This document shows positions 29,398-30,351 of a stretch of DNA of 41,703 nt, one piece after another. The notes beneath the pieces were generated by a model that was not told where the DNA came from, did no database searches, and was given only the letters and a program-made list of their open reading frames with translations. The position numbers were made by a program, and so were the translations under genes. Within the stretch, counting starts at the first letter, position 1. Every line of letters starts with the position of its first letter. This stretch comes from Candidatus Jorgensenbacteria bacterium RIFCSPLOWO2_01_FULL_45_25b (GTDB lineage Bacteria > Patescibacteriota > Minisyncoccia > UBA6257 > GWB1-50-10): the NCBI GenBank assembly GCA_001781035.1, contig MFKK01000002.1:4582-46284 (forward strand), in the 5' to 3' direction.

Positions 29398-29402
29398 TCT
29401 CT

Positions 29403-29511
29403 AATCTCTAAACCCTAATCTCTAAACAAATCCAAAACTCAAATATCAAAAACGCTTTTGAGTTTCGATATTTGAGATTGTTTAGAGATTAGAAATTAGG
29501 ATTTAGAGATT
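29403..29511 (+). repeat. Long inverted repeat upstream of rplL
   Basis: CTAATCTCTAAAC (29415-29427)/GTTTAGAGATTAG (29480-29492); CTCAAATATC (29438-29447)/GATATTTGAG (29467-29476). Confidence 0.85.
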
Positions 29512-29518
29512 CATATAT

Positions 29519-29896
29519 ATGTCTGAAGAAACAAAATACAGCGACATCATAGAAAAAGTGGAAAAATTAACGGTAATGGAACTCGCCGAACTCGTAAAGG
29601 CGCTCGAAGAAAAATTCGGCGTATCAGCGGCCGCGATGGCGGTAACGGCGCCGGGCGGAGGAGGTGGCGAGGAAGTCGTGGAAAAAGACTCTTTCAGCGT
29701 CGTATTGAAAGAGGTCGGAGCGCAGAAAATTAACGTGATAAAGGCGGTGAAAGAGATCACGGGGCTCGGACTAAAAGAAGCGAAAGATATTGTTGACGGA
29801 GCTCCAAAGGCGGTAAAAGAAGGAGTAAAAAGAGAGGAAGCGAATGAAATAAAGAAAAAGCTGGAAGAGGCGGGAGCGGTAGCAGAACTTCAATAA
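29519..29896 (+). CDS. rplL: 50S ribosomal protein L7/L12
   Basis: [24 protein letters not shown]...[49 protein letters not shown]. Confidence 0.97.
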
Positions 29897-29977: not shown

Positions 29978-30028
29978 TGAAGAAGAAAGGATAGTGTTCT
30001 ATGCTAAAAACAGCCTGAAGATTGGGCG

Positions 30029-30205
30029 CGGAGAGCCGACACCAAAGGTCGTCGGCTTGGTAGAGCGCTGTTTCATCCTGCGCAAAAAAATGCGCGCTTA
30101 GCTCAGCTCCGACGCCCCTTTGGGGGTCGGAGAGCCGACACCAAAGGTCGTCGGCTTGGTAGAGCGCTGTTTCATCCTGCGCAAAAAATGCGCGCTTAGC
30201 TCAGC
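30029..30205 (+). repeat. Tandem tRNA-Val-like degenerate copies with hairpin inserts
   Basis: 79/78-nt direct repeat at 30029-30107 and 30128-30205, containing GCGCGCTTAGCTCAG and TTGGTAGAGCGC tRNA words. Confidence 0.8.
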
Positions 30206-30261
30206 GGTAGAGCGTTCGCTTCACACGCGAAAGGTCGCAGGTTCAATCCCTGCAGTGCGCA
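30190..30261 (+). tRNA. tRNA-Val (CAC)
   Basis: GCGCGCT/AGTGCGC acceptor; anticodon arm TTCGC-TTCACAC-GCGAA; T-arm GCAGG-TTCAATC-CCTGC; CCA not encoded. Confidence 0.93.
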
Positions 30262-30351
30262 CAAAAAATATTACAAGCATGTGAAAAAATTGCGTCTGTG
30301 TATAACTAGAAAGCGAAAAACGAAAAAGTAAGATAAACAAAGGAAAATTCA

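Follow-up and report, generated by a model that had tools for sequence, protein, structure and literature searches.

The tRNA-Val(CAC) locus described here probably descends from a tRNA-targeting GIY-YIG mobile element that is found across the phylum, in a form that has no ORF and has been duplicated in tandem. The locus lies in a window of 41,703 nucleotides, which is the whole stretch of DNA analysed, and the source genome (804 kb in 38 contigs) has a reduced gene content. Its genes and its small size suggest a genome of Patescibacteria type. Loci of this type resemble degraded copies of a little-known mobile element, one that disrupts tRNA genes and brings a functional substitute, and the hairpins they carry are probably one part of the element and not the whole agent.

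The features of the locus are presented in Table 1. As the initial annotation had claimed, tandem tRNA-Val-like copies bearing hairpins are located upstream of an intact tRNA-Val, an arrangement confirmed by the sequence, ARAGORN and Rfam. The period of the two upstream units, given there as roughly 98 nt, is 99 nt, or 98 nt after a missing A. From hairpin 2 onward the copies are identical except for one A in the A-run; in the first copy, the start is gone, as is most of hairpin 1. The short segment GGGCGCGGAG probably stems from the original tRNA start, shortened by an internal deletion. The middle copy had been described as lacking the anticodon arm. Its arm is indeed incomplete, but the copy continues into CTGTTTCA, a segment similar to the first strand of the anticodon arm and its loop (TTCGCTTCA in the intact tRNA). 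It is therefore a 5' half that stops close to the anticodon. ARAGORN and Rfam scored neither of the upstream copies as a tRNA.

Table 1. Features of the tRNA-Val(CAC) locus and its flanks (positions in the window)
Feature	Position	Strand	Basis or remark
rplL (ribosomal protein L7/L12)	29519..29896	+	ORF; upstream synteny anchor
First displaced copy, remnant of start (GGGCGCGGAG)	30024..30033	+	Between rplL and the repeats; 66-nt repeat family begins here
Hairpin 2, first copy (AGCCGAC-ACC-AAA-GGT-C-GTCGGCT)	30034..30057	+	Sequence reading and repeat analysis
Displaced tRNA-Val fragment, first copy, D-arm 3' side to anticodon region (TGGTAGAGCGCTGTTTCA)	30058..30075	+	Match to intact tRNA (GGTAGAGCG, 100%)
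16-nt spacer (TCCTGCGCAAAAAAAT)	30076..30091	+	GIY-YIG ORF or AT-rich spacer here in relatives
Middle copy, displaced tRNA-Val 5' part (GCGCGCTTAGCTCAG)	30092..30106	+	Identical to start of intact tRNA
Hairpin 1 of twin (CTCCGAC-G-CCCC-TTT-GGGG-GTCGGAG), bulged G	30107..30132	+	Repeat analysis, fold, family consensus
Hairpin 2 of twin, second copy, bulged C before GTCGGCT	30133..30156	+	Sequence, repeats, family consensus
Displaced tRNA-Val fragment, second copy, D-arm 3' side to anticodon region	30157..30174	+	Sequence, repeats
D-arm 3' part of that fragment	30157..30166	+	
CTGTTTCA of that fragment	30167..30174	+	
Short spacer before intact tRNA (TCCTGCGCAAAAAAT)	30175..30189	+	Sequence; A-run at its end
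Intact tRNA-Val(CAC)	30190..30262	+	ARAGORN and Rfam, 70.5 bits
Next ORF 3' of tRNA-Val(CAC), mraZ-like	30535		

The palindromes occur far more often than chance predicts: four CCGAC..GTCGG hairpins were found in the window against 0.4 expected, three of them at this locus, and 22 were found genome-wide against 5 in the reversed control. No ORF of at least 100 amino acids was identified from rplL to the gene after tRNA-Val, and the 16-nt spacer leaves no room for one. A group I intron was not detected in the window, where Rfam finds only two tRNAs, and the insert precedes a complete tRNA. Likewise, the insert contains no ORF that could be the integrase gene of a tyrosine-recombinase integration. 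By eye, TTGAAG/TATGCT at 29978-30005 looked like a promoter driving the displaced unit, but the promoter scan did not call it. Separately, a large imperfect AT-rich inverted repeat (tctaatctctaaa ... tttagagattaga) was observed between rplJ and rplL, at 29400-29515 of the window.

Displaced tRNA fragments were also observed at many other loci. In the search of relatives at the DNA level, G028 showed the twin hairpin in the D-loop of a tRNA-Ile 5' fragment, followed by a GIY-YIG ORF (broken by one internal stop) and then by an intact tRNA-Ile. Comparable arrangements were identified at tRNA-Lys in G021, tRNA-Thr in G272 and tRNA-His in G292. Upstream 5' fragments were detected in 24 of 128 tRNA records, a sample picked through earlier matches so that the fraction is not a rate, and in none of the reversed flanks at that score. 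Most of these displaced 5' fragments contain hairpin-forming inserts at tRNA positions 9-30. Around the 51 tRNAs of the window's own genome, seven upstream 5' copies and eleven downstream 3' copies were counted (reversed control 0 for each), and another twin was found within a displaced tRNA-Val(TAC). Hairpin sequences vary between loci, and the context stays constant. Three tRNA-Lys(TTT) elements from three genomes (L067, L109 and L120) contain near-identical palindromes at the same D-arm position; the GIY-YIG ORF is kept in L067 and L109 and is absent from L120, which belongs to the window's own genome (TCCGTCAGCTGACGGA). ORF-less versions of ORF-bearing elements therefore exist.

Other arrangements around tRNA genes were noted alongside these. 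In L006 and L236, the native tRNA is divided at the anticodon loop, and between its parts stands a complete tRNA that differs from it but is of the same kind; by their acceptor stems, the displaced 5' and 3' halves fit each other and not the inserted tRNA. Complete tRNA genes inside the anticodon loop of another same-kind tRNA were observed at L006, L009, L016, L018 and L236, with inverted repeats flanking the inserts of L006, L009 and L236 (CCCCGTTAGAT..TTAACGGGG in L006). The CCCCGTTAGAT repeat of L006, L016 and L018 resembles the repeat flanking the GIY-YIG ORF of L111. In the window's own genome, six loci with tRNAs for Arg, Gly, Met, Tyr and Leu (L115, L118, L122, L125, L146 and L155) show an inverted T-arm copy downstream (GATTCGAACGGGAAAGGGGTCGGG... 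or GACTCGAACGGAACTTTTGCGCC...), together with a direct copy of the tRNA 3' end 125-160 nt after the tRNA. These downstream copies constitute a second, shared tRNA-end element. A further case is L245 in G301, a possibly functional tRNA-Arg(GCG) with the twin hairpin in its D-loop and an acceptor stem that looks degenerate; 34 tRNAs were found in this genome with no other Arg(GCG), but many isoacceptors are missing too.

Small GIY-YIG genes are present in every genome of the family. A same-strand tRNA lies within 400 nt of 22 of the 70 small GIY-YIG loci in the family, compared with 3 of 70 for the opposite strand, and the remaining 48 loci have no same-strand tRNA nearby. Two layouts were identified. 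In the first, a displaced 5' part is followed by the GIY-YIG gene and an intact tRNA, as seen with a GIY-YIG gene at tRNA-Pro in the window's own genome; in the second, an intact tRNA is followed by the GIY-YIG gene and a displaced 3' part. Complete copies consist of the native upstream region, a displaced native tRNA 5' part whose D-arm or anticodon arm is interrupted by one or two hairpins, a GIY-YIG ORF of about 80-95 codons and an intact tRNA of the same kind. The ORF is present at L111 (tRNA-Pro, in the window's own genome), L042, L210 (tRNA-Thr) and L216 (tRNA-His) and absent from the window copy. Proteins found with twins of the TCCGAC type have a common tail motif (KRKDY/KRKDI). Beside the 70 family loci, a search with the TCCGAC motif found no twins, because those elements use other palindromes.

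The strongest single result came from a prediction made before the loci were read. With the G292 GIY-YIG protein as the query, 11 loci were recovered in 287 genomes of the phylum, two of which (G272 and G292) were already known, and a tRNA and hairpin context was predicted for them. All 11 loci adjoin tRNA sequence on the same strand, and in at least nine of them a hairpin lies in the D-loop, or replaces the anticodon arm, of the adjoining displaced tRNA copy.

The twin hairpin itself constitutes a dispersed family. At the family level, the pattern was detected in 19 copies in 13 of 43 genomes, and at the phylum level in 37 strict copies in 16 of 240 genomes, with none in either reversed control. 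Displaced tRNA 5' fragments (Lys, Val and Ile) contain some of the 19 copies; others are in-frame insertions in protein genes, or lie in an RNA gene or in intergenic positions. Among the 54 distinct phylum-wide hits, a few of which were counted on both strands, a bulged G follows the CTCCGAC of hairpin 1 in 48; for hairpin 2, 40 of 46 have a bulged C ahead of GTCGG. The bases at the two free positions of hairpin 2 are complementary in 43 of 46 cases, against a mean of 21.8 and a maximum of 29 in 2000 shuffles. Pairing and bulge pattern therefore point to a design of two inverted copies of one bulged hairpin. In tRNA D-arms, twins are located at TAGCT^ or CTCAG^ and nearby (the window, L031, L210, L211, L222, L228 and L236), and other positions include the anticodon loop (L223), the T-loop (L228) and the inside of other hairpins. 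TCCGAC twins also occur in many places with neither a tRNA nor a GIY-YIG gene.

This distribution bears on the explanation that a REP/BIME-like or Rickettsia-type palindromic element acted alone, in which case the hairpin doublet would have entered the D-loop of an ordinarily duplicated tRNA-Val and the GIY-YIG genes would be unrelated. Besides being dispersed, head-to-head and covarying, the twins occur in frame in tsaD, gyrA, leuS, rplL and tsaE and inside rnpB. Compared with solved homologues, the twin adds about 9 residues to tsaD of the window's own genome (L043, contig C35) and 11 to gyrA of G018 (the query was off at one residue, outside the insertion). The RNase P RNA gene of the same genome (rnpB, L039 1177-1677, contig C34) carries a twin in the P12 region and scores just under the Rfam cut-off. 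Several different palindromes in displaced fragments, and tRNA copies that are degenerate but otherwise full-length and whose D-loop or T-loop carries a twin (L211 and L228), also fit this explanation. However, 9 of the 30 phylum-wide twin loci have a same-strand tRNA within 400 nt and only one has an opposite-strand tRNA, and a single GIY-YIG subfamily accompanies hairpin-bearing tRNA fragments in distant families. Neither would be expected if hairpins and GIY-YIG genes were unrelated, and we regard a palindrome acting alone as unlikely. Of the options offered by the initial annotation, a palindromic element that targets tRNA genes came closest: the twin is dispersed, and hairpin-bearing halves occur at many tRNA genes, often with a GIY-YIG gene, but the hairpins alone are probably not responsible.

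The orthologous sites in relatives weigh against a functional RNA, that is, a tRNA mimic, a tRNA-derived regulator or a tRNA-Val maturation leader folding into a multi-stem cruciform. The order rplL-tRNA-Val(CAC) is kept in G002 and G058, where the insert is absent, while the same site in G004 is differently occupied, by a displaced 5' half. The conservation anticipated for a tRNA mimic was thus not observed, and an intact conserved gene with empty alleles in relatives is the pattern of a homing insertion. Folding gave mixed indications. The stretch including the tRNA is predicted to fold stably (z = -4.6), and with shuffled letters in place of the hairpins the predicted cloverleaf probability falls from 0.68 to 0.42, as a functional RNA might lead one to expect; deleting the hairpins in silico has no such effect (0.69 vs 0.68). 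Since hairpin sequence also varies by locus while the context stays, we consider a functional RNA highly improbable. Insulation, in which the hairpins would prevent the displaced half from misfolding the new tRNA, was also modelled and rejected as a thermodynamic effect, as in most of 11 constructs the predicted cloverleaf was the same after deletion of the hairpins. The hairpins may ride along as REP-like passengers that do no harm in a displaced tRNA half, or they may be retained for silencing that half.

An assembly error, or a plain decaying tandem duplication with chance hairpins, is scarcely credible: two nearly identical 99-nt units in a 38-contig assembly do invite the suspicion, and the tandem copy number by itself could be wrong, but the same anatomy recurs at independent loci in this genome and in many other assemblies. 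The decaying duplication proposed initially is the right description of the tandem copies and leaves the recurrence unexplained.

For the tRNA-targeting GIY-YIG element, we infer the following course from the displaced halves, the hairpins, the restored tRNA, the GIY-YIG link in relatives and the empty orthologous sites, all of which are read directly in the sequences. A putative endonuclease would cut the tRNA gene near the anticodon, and repair would then copy the mobile element in, along with the tRNA part that it carries. The tRNA gene would thereby be restored and the original half pushed upstream. In the window copy, the ORF may have been lost or may never have been present, a REP-like twin hairpin would have come to occupy the D-loop of the displaced half, and the displaced unit would afterwards have been duplicated in tandem (99 nt). 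Several observations count against this course: the window copy shows no direct trace of a GIY-YIG ORF, 48 of the 70 family GIY-YIG loci are away from any same-strand tRNA, many TCCGAC twins stand apart from both tRNA and GIY-YIG genes, and fragment ends scatter around the anticodon more loosely than for known homing enzymes. Furthermore, the displaced 5' part in the window is identical to the start of the intact tRNA, and a foreign origin of the restored part therefore cannot be demonstrated at this locus. A broader possibility, offered tentatively, is a 'cleave and rescue' family in Patescibacteria, whose GIY-YIG nucleases would cleave an essential tRNA gene close to the anticodon while bringing a replacement tRNA part. 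A cell that loses the element or the rescue it provides would then lose the tRNA, and the hairpins in the D-loop or anticodon arm would mark the displaced half, which could neither serve as a tRNA nor recombine the element away.

If the proposed explanation is true, tRNA genes of these reduced genomes are repeatedly broken and replaced by tiny selfish elements. It would also help to explain why Patescibacteria have so many small orphan GIY-YIG genes and why hairpins occur in their tRNA, RNase P and protein genes, and it might account for part of the unexplained rRNA insertions. In addition, it gives a directly testable pair of enzyme and target. Caution is advisable in tRNA annotation, where displaced halves may be found among the calls near such loci.

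Several known systems resemble the locus in part. A survey of rRNA insertions in CPR bacteria describes non-intron insertions with GIY-YIG ORFs, as well as short insertions that lack an ORF at the tops or bases of stem-loops, thus sharing with our loci the CPR hosts, the GIY-YIG ORFs and the short ORF-less forms (PMC11270868). The rRNA GIY-YIG cases were judged to fall outside spread by homing; the survey covers rRNA only, and its main text mentions neither tRNA nor hairpins (PMC11270868). In the open-access PMC literature, we found no description of the present arrangement in CPR tRNA genes. Like REP/BIME sequences with GTAG or CGTC tags (PMC3733652), the twins are short bulged palindromes in head-to-head dimers, dispersed, sometimes intragenic and sometimes inside other palindromes. 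In contrast to them, inspection revealed no GTAG or CGTC tag at the hairpin foot, the flanks of the twins vary, and the link to tRNA is strong. A link to REP-associated (RAYT) transposases was not supported either: twins occur near 1 of 30 scanned Y1_Tnp loci, and Y1 genes are present in 5 of 13 twin-bearing genomes against 22 of all 43, although CGTC families of REP also have no Y1 transposase link (PMC3733652). The doublet is therefore without the two features by which classical REPs are defined, the tag and the transposase link (PMC3733652).

Rickettsia palindromic elements are also in-frame palindromes in conserved protein genes and in RNA genes. In-frame insertion is seen in the twin family and not in the window copy, and the twins are set apart, by description and not by sequence, by their two-hairpin design and by the displaced tRNA halves and GIY-YIG genes. 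Integrative elements of tyrosine recombinases likewise target a tRNA gene that is rebuilt by the incoming DNA; here there is no integrase, the insert is very small and the 5' half is displaced in the main class. Fungal mitochondrial double-hairpin elements are mobile twin hairpins, and the small genome that contains them has many GIY-YIG endonucleases. The likeness is again one of description and not of sequence, the host is different, and to our knowledge these elements have no link to tRNA.

Free-standing GIY-YIG homing genes (Pfam PF01541) are small ORFs placed in a conserved gene that is intact afterwards, with ORF-less derivatives and with empty alleles in relatives. The host gene here is a tRNA; a second copy, partial or whole, mends it in place of splicing, and the displaced half bears hairpins. 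The window copy contains no ORF and is therefore not a homing endonuclease element by definition. In its way of working, the locus comes closest to a free-standing homing endonuclease system to which a REP-like hairpin doublet has been added.
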